From Winogradskyella litoriviva (GTDB lineage: Bacteria > Bacteroidota > Bacteroidia > Flavobacteriales > Flavobacteriaceae), in contig NZ_JABRWQ010000002.1 in the NCBI RefSeq assembly GCF_013249065.1, positions 62,001 through 126,000 of the forward strand: 64,000 nucleotides of DNA. The letters run 5' to 3'. The translations under genes were made by a program, and so were the position numbers. Shown piece after piece: positions 56,921 through 61,836 of this stretch. The notes under the pieces were generated by a model. That model saw only the letters and a program-made list of their open reading frames with translations. It did no database searches and was not told where the DNA came from. Numbering within the stretch: the stretch's first letter is position 1; every line of letters starts with the position of its first letter.

Positions 56921-58552
56921 TTAAGCAACTACGCTTAGTTTTTTATCTGTCTTTAATTTGTTTGAACCAGATTCAAACTGATTAGACGTATTATTTTCTC
57001 CTCCTGCTTTTAGAGCTTTTTCACCTGCAAAAAATGTTTTGTGGTCATCACCTAAATCAGAACCTGCCATTCTTTGATGTTTTACACAAGACACATTTTT
57101 TCTAATCTCTTGTCGTTGCACGCCTTTTACATAAGCCAACATACCTTCTTCTCCAAAATAACCTTCGGTTAAATCATTCATATGTAACGCTGTTGTATGA
57201 TAGGTTGGTAATGTAATTAAGTGATGAAAAATACCAGCTTCTCTCGCGCCATCCATTTGGAAGGTCTTAATTTTCTCATCTGCTCTATGGCATAATTCTG
57301 AATGGTCATATTGCGCATCCATTAAATTATTTCTATCGTAAGCCGTCATGTTTTCTCCTTCAGCAAGCATTTCATCAAATACTTGATTACGGAAATTCAA
57401 AGTCCAGTTAAATGATGGTGAATTATTGTAAACCAATTTAGCATTTGGTACCACTTCTCTAATTCTGTTAACCATGTGTGCAATTTGTTTTACGTTTGGC
57501 GTAGGTGTTTCTATCCATAATAAATCTGCACCATTTTGAAGACTTGTTACACAATCTAAAACTACACGATCAATATTTGAGCCATCTTTAAACTTATACA
57601 ACCCATTAGCTAATCTTATAGGACGCACTAATTTTCCATCACGCTTTAATAAAACATCGTCTTGCTTTGCATCTTCAATAGCAACTTCTTCTGCATCTAC
57701 AAAAGCTAAATATTGAGACGCTAAATCACCAGGCTCTTGGCTTACAGGTAATTTTTGAGTTAAACCAGCACCTTCAGAATCTGTTCTTGCTACTATAATT
57801 CCGTCTTCTACGCCTAATTCTAAAAACGCATAACGCACTGCATTTAATTTAGCCACAAAATCTTCATGAGGAACTGTAACCTTTCCATCTTGATGTCCAC
57901 ATTGTTTGGCATCCGAAACCTGATTTTCAATTTGAATAGCACAAGCACCTGCTTGAATCATCTTTTTAGCCAGTAAATATGTTGCTTCCTCATTACCAAA
58001 ACCAGCATCTATATCTGCGATGATTGGAACGATATGCGTTTCAAAATTATCAATTTCATTCTGAACATCTTCTCCATTTTCTAATCTTCGGAATAAATCA
58101 TTTAGTTCAATCGCATCTGCCTGACGTAAGAAATCATAAATTTCTTCAATTAGTCCAGAAACAGCTGTTTTCTCATGCATTGACTGATCTGGTAATGGTC
58201 CAAATTCTGAACGTAATGCTGCAACCATCCAACCAGAAAGGTATAAATAACGTTTACTTGTTGTTTTGTGGTGTTTCTTCACTGCAATCATTTTTTGCTG
58301 CGCCACAAAACCATGCCAGCAACCCAAAGATTGTGTGTAATTTGATGAATCTGCATCATAAGCTGCCATATCTTCTCTCATAATAGCAGCTGTGTATTTT
58401 GCAATATCCAAACCTGTTCTAAATTGATTTTGAGCTACCATTCTGGCAGCGCTTTCAGGATTAATAGCATTCCAAGTTTGTCCGTACTTTGCTTTAAGAT
58501 TTCTTACGGTTTCTAATGCAGAACGATAGTTACTTTGTCCTAAATTTTTCAT
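56921..58552 (-). CDS. aceA: Isocitrate lyase
   Basis: 543 residues, the long form of the enzyme. The catalytic loop reads K216-Q-C-G-H220 with C218 as the base; the second residue is Gln instead of the Lys or Arg of the classical KKCGH, as in the subfamily typified by Pseudomonas. IADIDAGFGN (178-187) binds magnesium, and the C-terminal part (CVKHQRMAGSDLGDD) is complete. It splits isocitrate to succinate and glyoxylate in the cytosol. It follows aceB in the same direction (85-base gap with a hairpin). Glyoxylate passes to malate synthase. Confidence 0.96.
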   Translation of the reverse strand: MKNLGQSNYRSALETVRNLKAKYGQTWNAINPESAARMVAQNQFRTGLDIAKYTAAIMREDMAAYDADSSNYTQSLGCWHGFVAQQKMIAVKKHHKTTSKRYLYLSGWMVAALRSEFGPLPDQSMHEKTAVSGLIEEIYDFLRQADAIELNDLFRRLENGEDVQNEIDNFETHIVPIIADIDAGFGNEEATYLLAKKMIQAGACAIQIENQVSDAKQCGHQDGKVTVPHEDFVAKLNAVRYAFLELGVEDGIIVARTDSEGAGLTQKLPVSQEPGDLASQYLAFVDAEEVAIEDAKQDDVLLKRDGKLVRPIRLANGLYKFKDGSNIDRVVLDCVTSLQNGADLLWIETPTPNVKQIAHMVNRIREVVPNAKLVYNNSPSFNWTLNFRNQVFDEMLAEGENMTAYDRNNLMDAQYDHSELCHRADEKIKTFQMDGAREAGIFHHLITLPTYHTTALHMNDLTEGYFGEEGMLAYVKGVQRQEIRKNVSCVKHQRMAGSDLGDDHKTFFAGEKALKAGGENNTSNQFESGSNKLKTDKKLSVVA

Positions 58553-58598: not shown

Positions 58599-58639
58599 GT
58601 CTCGTAATCTATTCCAGTAGTTACGAGACATTTTTTTTT
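58599..58639 (+). terminator. Hairpin with T run between aceB and aceA, oriented to the plus strand
   Basis: A perfect 9-bp stem GTCTCGTAA (58599-58607) with TTACGAGAC (58621-58629), 13-base loop, then A and nine T (58631-58639). On the plus strand this is a textbook terminator, but both flanking genes are on the minus strand, where only the stem-loop would form. Confidence 0.6.
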
Positions 58640-60236
58640 ATATTAATTGATATGCTGAAAGTGTTAAAAACTCTTCGAACTCTGTTTGTGTTACTAATCT
58701 TTTGAAAAGTGAAATAGCTTCAGAAAATTTGGTGTTTTTAATTTTCCCCTCTCCTACTTCTTTTATTATTTTTTCAACTTCATCATCAAACAATTCATCA
58801 AATAAAGTTTTATTAAAAACTCGACCATCTTCTAAAATCACTTCGTTTTTTAACCATTGCCAAACTTGTGTTCTCGATATTTCTGCCGTTGCAGCATCTT
58901 CCATTAAGTTGTAAAGTGCCACTGCACCATAACCTCTTAACCAAGCTTCGAGATAAAGAATACCAACATTGATATTTTTTCTTACACCAGCTTCTGTAAT
59001 TGTTCCTTTTGGAATTTCTACTAAATCTGCTTCGGTAACCACAACATCTTCACGCTTCTTAAAAATCTGATTTGGTGTTGGCATATATTTATCAAACTCC
59101 TGCATAGCAACAGCAACCAAATCAGGATGTGCAACCCAAGTACCGTCGTGTCCATTTTTGGCTTCACGCTCTTTATCTACTCTTACTTTTTCGAGCGCAG
59201 CTTTGTTAGCTTTAGGGTTATTTTTAATAGGAATTTGTGCAGCCATTCCTCCCATGGCATGGATGCCTCTTTTATGGCATCGCTGTATTACAAGATTAGA
59301 ATATGCAGCCATAAATGGTGTGGACATAGTTACTTGGTCTCTATTTGGTACCACGAAACCTCTATGATTTCTAAACTTTTTGATGTATGAAAAAATATAA
59401 TCCCAACGTCCGCAGTTTAAACCTACAATATGGTCTTTAAGTTCATAGATATATTCGTCTAATTGAAAACTTGCTGTTATGGTTTCAATTAATAAGGTAG
59501 CTTTAAAAGTTCCATTTGGTATTTGTAAATAACTCTGAGCAAACTCAAATACTTCATTCCACCAACGCGCTTCTAAATAATGCTCTAATTTTGGCAAATA
59601 GAAATAAGGCGCAGAATCGTTTTCCATTAATGCTACTGTATTATGGTATACGTATAGACCAAAATCAAATAAACTACCAGACATTTCCTCACCATTTAAA
59701 ATGAGATGACGTTCGTTTAAATGCAAACCTCTTGGTCTTACAATTAACACAGCTGTTTGGTCATTAAGTTTATAATGTTTACCTCTAGCTTTATCAACGA
59801 GTTCAATAGTTTTTAGGTTAGCGTCAATTAGATTTTGTTGCCCTTCTAAAGTATTTTTCCAACTCGGCGCATTACTATCTTCAAAATCTGCCATAAATGT
59901 TTTGGCTCCTGAGTTTAAAGCATTGATTACCATTTTACGATCCACAGGACCTGTAATTTCCACACGACGGTCTTGTAAATCATCTGGAATTGCAGCTGCT
60001 GTCCAATCTGACTCTCTTATAGATTTTGTTTCTTCAGGGAAAGACGGAAAACCGCCTTTATCGAAAACGAGTTGCTGCTGTTCTCTACTTTCTAATAAAG
60101 ATAAACGAGAAGCATTAAATTTTTCTTGTAATACTGTAAGAAACTCTAGAGCGTCTTCAGTTAAAAGTTTTGGATAGAAATTTGTCACCTCTGGTGCGAA
60201 TTTCATTTTTTGCTGTGTTGTTACTGAAATTTCCAT
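58638..60236 (-). CDS. aceB: Malate synthase A
   Basis: 532 residues, normal for the A isoform. The acetyl-CoA and glyoxylate site motifs are present: LIVRPRGLHLNERH with the catalytic Arg (about 163-176), ETITASFQLDEYIYEL (254-269) with the magnesium-binding Glu, GLNCGRWDYIFSY (273-285) and the C-terminal catalytic Asp in LMEDAATAEISR. It condenses acetyl-CoA with glyoxylate to malate, completing the glyoxylate bypass with AceA just downstream. Divergent from the ShortScr regulator gene, whose operator array lies immediately upstream of this start. Confidence 0.96.
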   Translation of the reverse strand: MEISVTTQQKMKFAPEVTNFYPKLLTEDALEFLTVLQEKFNASRLSLLESREQQQLVFDKGGFPSFPEETKSIRESDWTAAAIPDDLQDRRVEITGPVDRKMVINALNSGAKTFMADFEDSNAPSWKNTLEGQQNLIDANLKTIELVDKARGKHYKLNDQTAVLIVRPRGLHLNERHLILNGEEMSGSLFDFGLYVYHNTVALMENDSAPYFYLPKLEHYLEARWWNEVFEFAQSYLQIPNGTFKATLLIETITASFQLDEYIYELKDHIVGLNCGRWDYIFSYIKKFRNHRGFVVPNRDQVTMSTPFMAAYSNLVIQRCHKRGIHAMGGMAAQIPIKNNPKANKAALEKVRVDKEREAKNGHDGTWVAHPDLVAVAMQEFDKYMPTPNQIFKKREDVVVTEADLVEIPKGTITEAGVRKNINVGILYLEAWLRGYGAVALYNLMEDAATAEISRTQVWQWLKNEVILEDGRVFNKTLFDELFDDEVEKIIKEVGEGKIKNTKFSEAISLFKRLVTQTEFEEFLTLSAYQLI

Positions 60237-60288
60237 GCTATAGTTTTATTTGATGAAGCAATGTTACAACCAATTTTTCAAAAAAACA

Positions 60289-60347
60289 AGCGAACGTTCG
60301 CTAAAAATATATTTTCGCTATTTAATTAAGTTCGCAAATTGTAGTAT
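60289..60347. promoter_or_regulatory. Putative operator: palindrome plus TTCGC repeats with 17-bp period
   Basis: TTCGC(T/A) occurs at 60297, 60314 and 60331, exactly 17 bp apart, each followed by A/T-rich sequence. The first copy is the right half of a perfect 14-bp palindrome AGCGAACGTTCGCT (60289-60302). The array spans the upstream region of the regulator promoter and lies 53 bases before the aceB start. The third copy TTCGCAAA resembles the TTTGCAAA core of RamB/PrpR sites. Likely target of the adjacent regulator. Confidence 0.65.
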
Positions 60348-60352
60348 ATTTG
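60345..60352 (+). promoter_or_regulatory. -7 promoter element of the ShortScr regulator gene
   Basis: TATATTTG, exact TAnnTTTG, with TTTA at 60321-60324 (20-base spacer) as a possible -33 box. Only five bases separate it from ATG 60358, so the transcript should be essentially leaderless. The -33/-7 region overlaps the operator array. Confidence 0.6.
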
Positions 60353-60357
60353 CTACT

Positions 60358-61836
60358 ATGGAACAAGATTATATAAAACTAATATTTGGACTAAAGCTGA
60401 AGCAAATCCGCACAGACAAAGGACTTTCGCTATTTGGCTTATCTAAATTATCTGGACTTTCAAAATCCTATTTAAACGAAATTGAAAAAGGAAAAAAATA
60501 TCCTAAACCAGATAAAATTGCAGCTCTTTCTGAACATTTAGACATTCCTTATGACGAAATGGTATCCTTAAAGCTAGATAAAAATCTTGCTCCTATTGGT
60601 GAAATATTACAATCGAAATTGCTTAAAGAAATACCTTTAGAAATATTTGGAATTCAAGAAAGCACAATGATTGATATTATCTCTAATGCGCCAGCAAAAG
60701 TGACAGCATTTATTAGTACAATTATTGAAATTGCAAAGAACTACAACTTTAGCAAGGAGAGTTTTTACCTAGCTTCTGTGCGCTCTTTTCAAGAAGCCAA
60801 TAACAATTATTTTGATGACTTAGAACAAGCTGTTTTAAAATTTTCAAAAACATATCAAGTCGATTTAACAAAACCAATACAATCCGCTGAACTTGAAGAA
60901 ATCTTAACTGAAGAATATGGTTATACTATTAATTTTAATGAATTAACATCGCACACTGAATTAAAAAACTTACGCTCTGTTTTTGTTCCTAAAAGCAAAA
61001 CCTTATTACTAGCACGCCACATAGATGATGCACAAAAAACTTTTATCTATGCTAAAGAAATTGCCTATAATTATTTAGAAATTAGTGAGCGACTTTACAC
61101 TTTCTCTTGGATTAAATTTGAAAACTTTGATCAAGTATTAAATAATTTTTATGCTTCGTATTTTGCTGGTGCTTTAATTATACCCAGAGCTCGTTTAGTA
61201 GATGATTTAAAAGAATTATTTTCAAAAACCACCTTTAAAACTAAAGATTTTAAACAAATTATTAGTAATTATAATGCATCACCTGAATCAATTTATCAGA
61301 GATTAACCAATATATTAACAAAGGATTTTAATCTTAAGAGCTTGTTCTTTTTAAGATTTTCTCATAAAAAAGACTCCAATCACTTCAAACTAAATAAAGA
61401 ATTACATTTATCTAAACAACAGTCTCCACATGCTAACGAAACTAATCAGCATTATTGCAGACGTTGGGCATCTTTAAAAGTTTTAGAACAGATTAGTAAA
61501 AGCAATAAACCTCATGAATTTGATATTCAAATTTCTAATTATTCAAATGAAGATAAGAGCTATTTAGTATTCTCTTCTGCCACTGCAGACCCTTTTGTTG
61601 CTAATAGCTATAGAAGTGTAACTATTGGTATTCAAATTAATAGTCAACTTAAACGTAAAATTGCCTTTACTGAGAGCGAGTCAATCCCTAAAACCCAAGT
61701 TGGTGTTACATGCGAGCGCTGCGTAATCAGTGATTGCGATGTAAGACAAGCAGAACCAACCAGTATTATTTCTGCTCAAAAAGATGCAAAAATTGCTGAT
61801 GTGGTAAATAAAATTCAAGAAAAATACAGTAAATAA
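60358..61836 (+). CDS. XRE family regulator, RamB/PrpR-like (short-chain acyl-CoA regulator type)
   Basis: 492 residues from ATG 60358. A frame start at 60250 would include the promoter and operator and has no homology. The N-terminal helix-turn-helix (about 10-66, LSLFGLSKLSGLSKSYLNEIEKG core) is followed by an IrrE/M78-like domain (about 185-275) that has lost the HExxH zinc site (YAKEIAYNYL) and a DUF2083-type C-terminal domain. C367, C452, C455 and C460 match the four-cysteine layout that binds [4Fe-4S] in mycobacterial PrpR. Family members control aceA, aceB, acs or methylcitrate genes in response to acyl-CoA. Divergent from aceBA and beside acs, so it very probably regulates them and itself. 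Confidence 0.85.
   Translation: MEQDYIKLIFGLKLKQIRTDKGLSLFGLSKLSGLSKSYLNEIEKGKKYPKPDKIAALSEHLDIPYDEMVSLKLDKNLAPIGEILQSKLLKEIPLEIFGIQESTMIDIISNAPAKVTAFISTIIEIAKNYNFSKESFYLASVRSFQEANNNYFDDLEQAVLKFSKTYQVDLTKPIQSAELEEILTEEYGYTINFNELTSHTELKNLRSVFVPKSKTLLLARHIDDAQKTFIYAKEIAYNYLEISERLYTFSWIKFENFDQVLNNFYASYFAGALIIPRARLVDDLKELFSKTTFKTKDFKQIISNYNASPESIYQRLTNILTKDFNLKSLFFLRFSHKKDSNHFKLNKELHLSKQQSPHANETNQHYCRRWASLKVLEQISKSNKPHEFDIQISNYSNEDKSYLVFSSATADPFVANSYRSVTIGIQINSQLKRKIAFTESESIPKTQVGVTCERCVISDCDVRQAEPTSIISAQKDAKIADVVNKIQEKYSK

Follow-up and report, generated by a model that had tools for sequence, protein, structure and literature searches.

In Winogradskyella litoriviva, aceB and a divergently oriented gene for a ScfR/RamB-type regulator are separated by a gap of 121 bp that carries one palindrome and two further half-sites. 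Sequence comparison makes it highly probable that this array serves as operator for the adjacent regulator, whatever the sign of the control. The window, i.e. the whole stretch of 64,000 nucleotides that was analysed, contains aceB (malate synthase A; TIGR01344, 780 bits) at 58638-60236 and aceA (isocitrate lyase; NF005074) at 56921-58552, both on the minus strand, and the regulator gene at 60358-61836 on the plus strand. Presumably aceA, which lies downstream of aceB, is transcribed after it. The gap extends from 60237 to 60357, with the aceB start at 60236 and the regulator ATG at 60358.

The candidate core operator AGCGAACGTTCGCT at 60289-60302 belongs to neither strand and consists of the half-sites GCGAA and TTCGC around a 2-bp centre. 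A second half-site, TTCGCTAT (60314-60321, plus strand), follows 17 bp from the first TTCGC, and a third, TTCGCAAA (60331-60338, plus strand), is found in the spacer of the regulator promoter. An earlier note on this DNA had reported the palindrome together with TTCGCT at 60297, TTCGCT at 60314 and TTCGCA at 60331, and all of these were found where it placed them. It had also described the 17-bp period as exact and concluded from it (about 1.6 helical turns) that adjacent sites face different sides of the helix. Such an exact period holds for the W. litoriviva genome; in relatives, steps of 17 and of 18 bp both occur, with a total span of 34-37 bp. Since the step varies, the claim about helical faces is weakened, and the argument from exact helical phase was dropped.

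Among 200,000 first-order Markov sequences modelled on the gap, three equally spaced TTCGCW were found in 2, any perfect 14-bp palindrome in 10,464, and the triple together with such a palindrome in none. TTCGC is the only 5-mer with at least three G/C that occurs thrice at equal spacing (8-30 bp) on the plus strand of the window. By itself TTCGCW shows no enrichment in the window, with 35 occurrences observed and 48 expected. Chance repeats in AT-rich DNA would be compatible with the observation that 14-bp palindromes by themselves are not rare (7 in the window), as well as with the frequency of TTCGCW-N11-TTCGCW, which is found twice in the 3.89-Mb genome, both times within the array, as the reversed control pattern is likewise found twice. 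What goes beyond chance is therefore the triple and the conservation, not a lone pair. Conservation across Bacteroidota, given below, refutes chance as an explanation, and we regard it as practically negligible.

Using the regulator protein, 286 places were found in other genomes, and the best 80 of the 286 (64-94% identity), picked by protein only, were combined with the window into a set of 81 loci. The identical 14-mer AGCGAACGTTCGCT is present in 79 of the 81 loci. This is the honest figure, as column identities were computed on loci already holding the 12-bp core and a value of 100% there reflects the selection. The expectation of the earlier note that the array should be conserved in relatives with the same gene order was borne out: the 14-mer occurs in every one of the 77 relatives that have aceB next to the regulator gene, and in one locus interrupted by a contig end (L052). 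It is absent from two Xanthomarina loci (L064 and L101), neither of which has aceB beside the regulator.

Three exact TTCGC half-sites with steps of 17 or 18 bp are found in 66 of the 79 loci, with the second and third at offsets of +17/+34 in 43, +17/+35 in 11, +18/+36 in 11 and +18/+35 in one. One of these two exact half-sites is missing in 11 loci and both are missing in 2. Taken singly, the exact second TTCGC at 17 or 18 bp is present in 68 and the exact third in 75 of the 79 loci. In another relative (L158) the 17-bp pitch continues to a fourth TTCGC. In many lineages, e.g. genus g34, L157 and L159-L161, the direct repeats are absent or decayed, and half-sites two and three are therefore not essential to the family. 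A search for plasmid DNA resembling the gap found none.

For the phylum-wide survey 395 Bacteroidota genomes were drawn, 69 of which have the regulator, giving 70 places including that of the window. Upstream regions were read at 68 of the 69 other places (G475 was left out), and the regulator start was taken from coordinates in 13 of the 68 loci and from tblastn in the remainder. Exact GCGAA-N2-TTCGC is found upstream of the regulator in 55 of the 68 loci and in 17 of 19 families, with AT, CG, TT and others as the centre. The exact core is missing in 13 loci, six of which have GCGAACGTACGC, one GCGAAATTTCAC and six nothing close. From the distant loci, 39 upstream regions of 500 nt each were fetched separately; the core is present in 34 of these as compared to a Markov expectation of 0.13%, and TTCGC is repeated at a distance of 17 or 18 bp in 10, where 0.3% was expected. 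In Persicobacter psychrovividus a gene lies between the regulator and aceB, and the core is found upstream of aceB.

A separate observation in the 39 distant regions is the everted pair TTCGC-N5-GCGAA, which occurs in 18 of them (L203, L205, L207, L212, L215, L218, L219, L225 and L230-L239), with N5 far above other spacings; the count was made after the pattern had been spotted and is not an independent test. Where the palindrome is also present, the everted pair sits on its regulator side. It is possibly a second operator form for autoregulation.

Adjacency alone proves nothing, and the array might be bound by a different transcription factor encoded elsewhere, the adjacent regulator being a bystander. 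In a sample of 119 related genomes, with the regulator called at E <=1e-40, the regulator was found in 44, aceB in 43 and the 12-bp core in 42, with one core each. Core and regulator occur together in 41 genomes, the regulator only in 3, the core only in one, and neither in 74 (Fisher p 4e-27, which is no true probability as the genomes are related); the reversed control pattern is found in 5 of the 119. The regulator genomes without the exact core have another centre (TG in G057, TT in G090 and G117), and the core without a regulator (G084) lies inside an ORF. All 43 aceB genomes carry the regulator, and in the one regulator genome without aceB (G023) the regulator is located 117 bases from the contig start.

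In the two Xanthomarina genomes mentioned above aceB was not detected, using the same query that finds it elsewhere. A core stays with the regulator there: both genomes have a sole CGAACGTTCG at the regulator promoter, in the place of the third half-site. This 10-mer is not rare, as the reversed control matches 3 of the 4 genomes in the Xanthomarina set, and only its position therefore speaks. The tracking of the regulator gene by the core over the 119 genomes and its persistence in Xanthomarina both argue against another factor, and one core copy per genome would suit a global factor poorly. We consider a bystander regulator improbable, and the adjacent regulator remains the preferred partner of the array.

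The regulator consists of an N-terminal XRE helix-turn-helix domain, an IrrE-like middle and an ScfR-like C-terminal region. The helix-turn-helix (PF01381) is matched at 14-67 with 40.4 bits (cut-off 23). The match to the ScfR C-terminal domain PF09856 has 21.2 bits and E 2.8e-4, which is below the gathering score of 24, and the IrrE-like Pfam model match is also sub-threshold. ScfR-type proteins have a C-X2-C-X4-C motif that binds [4Fe4S], and the regulator carries it as CERCVISDC; over 30 regulator sequences these cysteines are at least 90% conserved and Cys367 is invariant. As the score against the RamB equivalog NF038139 is 49.1 bits (E 3e-13) and the cut-off of 700 is not reached, the regulator is a relative and not a member of this equivalog.

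An AlphaFold model of the regulator has a mean pLDDT of 78. The six best PDB matches found by Foldseek are all MtPrpR chains (E 4e-10 to 3e-9), with 15-17% identity and a TM score of 0.42-0.45 by query length. The sequence-profile match to PrpR is weak (E 0.056-0.13), and phmmer matches against PDB sequences are confined to the helix-turn-helix domain. We take the protein as a member of the ScfR family (also called IsaR), which is RamB-like and stands outside the RamB equivalog.

Both promoters were placed by the -7 box, whose TAnnTTTG consensus occupies -12 to -5 (PMC9723704). The regulator box TATATTTG (60345-60352, plus strand) fits this consensus, as it does in all 79 loci, and in 56 of these it lies 4 or 5 nt before the ATG, so that the regulator mRNA would be nearly leaderless there; the frequency of leaderless mRNAs in F. 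psychrophilum, only 5.5% according to the available part of PMC9723704, counts against this. The aceB box TAACATTG (60259-60266, minus strand) reads TAnnATTG and is thus off consensus at its fifth base, which is A in 76 and C in 3 of the 79 loci. The aceB -33 element TTG (60287-60289, minus strand) abuts the 12-bp core.

These distances are strongly conserved on the outside of the array. In 72 of the 79 loci the start of the aceB TAnnATTG box is at a distance of exactly 23 nt from the palindrome core, the -33 TTG touches the core on the aceB side in 73 of the 79 and in 23 of the 34 distant loci with core, and the third exact half-site begins 14 nt before the regulator -7 box in 72 of 75 loci. 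The outer distances (23 nt and 14 nt) are rigid while the span between them varies from 34 to 37 bp. With the -7 boxes set at -12 to -5, the palindrome centre would be at about -41.5 of aceB and, at the commonest spacing (44 of the 79 loci), at -61.5 of the regulator, and the third half-site would cover about -26 to -19 of the regulator, within its promoter. In the distant core loci a TA...T box is again found at offset 23, on the flank facing away from the regulator, in 19 of 34, the next best offset having 8 of 34, and the -41.5 spacing therefore recurs in these 19. The proposal of the earlier note, that a cis-regulatory array overlaps the regulator promoter and precedes aceB in a place suited for dual control and autoregulation, agrees with this layout as far as placement is concerned.

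A centre near -41.5 is the class II activator position, as in CRP-like geometry. We propose that a dimer of the regulator would recognise GCGAA-N2-TTCGC (here AGCGAACGTTCGCT) through its XRE helix-turn-helix domains, and that the single TTCGC half-sites 17-18 bp further on would be filled by additional subunits. The palindrome-bound dimer at -41.5, touching the -33 TTG, would contact RNA polymerase at aceB, and upon an acyl-CoA signal the regulator would switch aceB-aceA on, which it may hold off otherwise. A subunit on the third half-site, between the -33 region and the -7 box, would block the regulator promoter and thereby lead to autorepression. Conservation, geometry, co-occurrence and the regulator family were computed, and the binding, ligand, oligomer state, control sign and transcription starts are those we infer. 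That the regulator controls both genes during growth on acetate or fatty acids is very probable; the whole mechanism, comprising operator, aceB activation from a class II position and regulator autorepression, we judge to be reasonably probable.

The same operator could also serve a regulator acting as a pure repressor of both genes and released by acyl-CoA, where the palindrome-bound protein would hide the aceB -33 TTG and the third half-site would hide the regulator promoter. The abutment of core and -33 TTG in 73 of 79 loci is in accordance with this, as a class II position also suits hiding the -33, and RamB of Mycobacterium tuberculosis has been described as more likely a repressor (PMC6765138, available text). 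However, in each of the 79 loci the aceB -7 box deviates from the consensus at one and the same base while the regulator box conforms to it, and a deviation that is conserved fits activator dependence. TAnnATTG need not be weak, since the flavobacterial sigma-A box is naturally variable (PMC9723704). The recurrence of the -41.5 spacing in 19 of the 34 distant loci also speaks against pure repression, as does the requirement of both boxes for activation by Paracoccus RamB (PMC10370305). Pure repression in this form appears possible but rather unlikely, and activation of aceB with autorepression of the regulator is preferred.

The T-run on the aceB side of the palindrome raises the question of a function as RNA, with AGCGAACGTTCGCT, followed by TGTTTTTTTG, acting on the aceB strand as an intrinsic terminator or attenuator. 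The T-run is present in 75 of the 79 Flavobacteriaceae loci, and a pattern scan calls the palindrome terminator-like (1 found, 1.1 expected). In the distant loci, however, the T-run is rare (5 of 34), the stem has only 5 bp, with -4.8 kcal/mol (z -1.25), and the array has no Rfam match at gathering scores; for these reasons the terminator or attenuator was rejected. Moreover, the stem sequence is kept while the centre varies, the same-strand TTCGC repeats cannot pair mutually, and the array would be transcribed from neither of the predicted promoters. An RNA element is very improbable, and a DNA operator is the reading retained here.

In Paracoccus denitrificans the boxes bound by RamB (ScfR class 2) are located between ramB and ms, and RamB acts as an activator on acetate and apparently as a repressor on succinate. 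CoA esters convert the protein from a tetramer into a dimer, and the model put forward in that study attributes repression to the bound tetramer and activation to the bound dimer (PMC10370305). The present locus is similar in having the regulator divergent from glyoxylate genes (malate synthase, isocitrate lyase) with paired boxes in the gap, and its geometry suits the tetramer/dimer model because the palindrome would be at -41.5 of aceB and the half-sites would reach the regulator promoter. The Paracoccus boxes are two near-identical ones with an 18-bp spacer (PMC10370305), a comparison of layout and not of motif letters, whereas the present array, from the phylum Bacteroidota, has one palindrome and half-sites with steps of 17-18 bp, of which one falls within the promoter of the regulator itself.

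M. tuberculosis PrpR/RamB shares with the regulator the Foldseek fold match and the CX2CX4C motif (PMC6765138). Its 17-bp site is given as TTTGCAAA-N-TTTGCgAA (PMC6765138), which can be read as GCAAA-N1-TTTGC and would then resemble GCGAA-N2-TTCGC; in comparison with this site, the third half-site TTCGCAAA is the reverse complement of TTTGCGAA. The mycobacterial half-site is GCAAA and not GCGAA, and the centre is 1 bp and not 2 bp. A half-site array is without mention in the available part of PMC6765138, and PrpR serves propionate genes. Corynebacterium glutamicum RamB is likewise a regulator of acetate metabolism and its site contains TTTGCAAA, but RamB sites are found at many genes (PMC4448153) as opposed to the one operator found here.

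The ScfR/RamB literature used for comparison concerns, in its available parts, Actinobacteria and one alphaproteobacterium (PMC10370305, PMC6765138, PMC4448153). Searches of open-licence literature gave no description of a Bacteroidota ScfR/RamB operator, and subscription literature might hold a motif; literature matches to the motif letters are, by title, about CpG oligonucleotides, immunology and vaccines. On sequence grounds we file the array as a putative ScfR/RamB-type operator in Bacteroidota with a half-site layout of its own. It supplies a precise and testable operator for a Bacteroidota glyoxylate-shunt regulator, and the predictions that follow from it are transcription starts near 60254 (minus strand) and 60357 (plus strand), class II geometry, and a single main locus as target.

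TTCGC is found within the target-side spacer in 11 of the 34 distant core loci as compared to none of the 79 Flavobacteriaceae loci, whose array extends into the regulator promoter instead. A tentative reading, to which we give less than an even chance, is that a tetramer/dimer switch reads the Bacteroidota operator as a modular ruler, with the half-site moved by evolution. With the palindrome anchored at -41.5 of the target promoter the dimer would activate, and a lone half-site about 17-19 bp away inside a promoter spacer would allow repression by the tetramer. If true, lineages would have exchanged target repression for regulator autorepression by shifting one 5-bp half-site. The half-site arrangements form a natural series on how a tetrameric acyl-CoA sensor picks activation or repression.

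The earlier note had further expected sites upstream of acs/actP, which did not materialise: genome-wide scans gave no second operator, degenerate sites being possible. The exact core GCGAANNTTCGC occurs once in the genome. One-mismatch copies number 23 as compared to 40 for the reversed control, and all 23 are inside mechanical ORFs (>=100 or 120 aa). The 14-mer with two mismatches is found at 3 more places in the genome, all in ORFs, and TTCGC-N12/13-TTCGC outside the array is found twice, both in ORFs, with 5 forward and 3 reverse occurrences of the reversed control. TTCGC/GCGAA is absent from a 2.7-kb stretch that covers the start of an acs-like gene pair together with some 2.4 kb of DNA upstream of it; actP was covered by the genome-wide scans and not by a located gene. 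The array is the only good operator found in the genome, and control by the regulator appears to be limited to a single locus here.

Some minor observations concern the surroundings of the array and its counterparts. Two adjacent acyl-CoA synthetase-like frames are found on the minus strand at and beyond the right end of the window (L254/L260; G000:C22:124700-131000), the first being AMP-binding by Pfam and the second judged by eye. At L199 (1-1344) the regulator and palindrome are divergent from an AMP-binding acyl-CoA ligase-like frame, read from the sequence, which replaces aceB; L201, L210, L214, L216, L217 and L228 may resemble this arrangement. An inverted repeat, GTCTCGTAA / TTACGAGAC, is found between aceB and aceA at 58599-58629 with a T-run on the plus-strand side. 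Finally, TTTCGCTATTT at 60424-60434, in the start of the regulator coding sequence, is a further copy of the second half-site plus flank (60313-60323); this copy is in-frame coding, and its spacing is not a multiple of 17.
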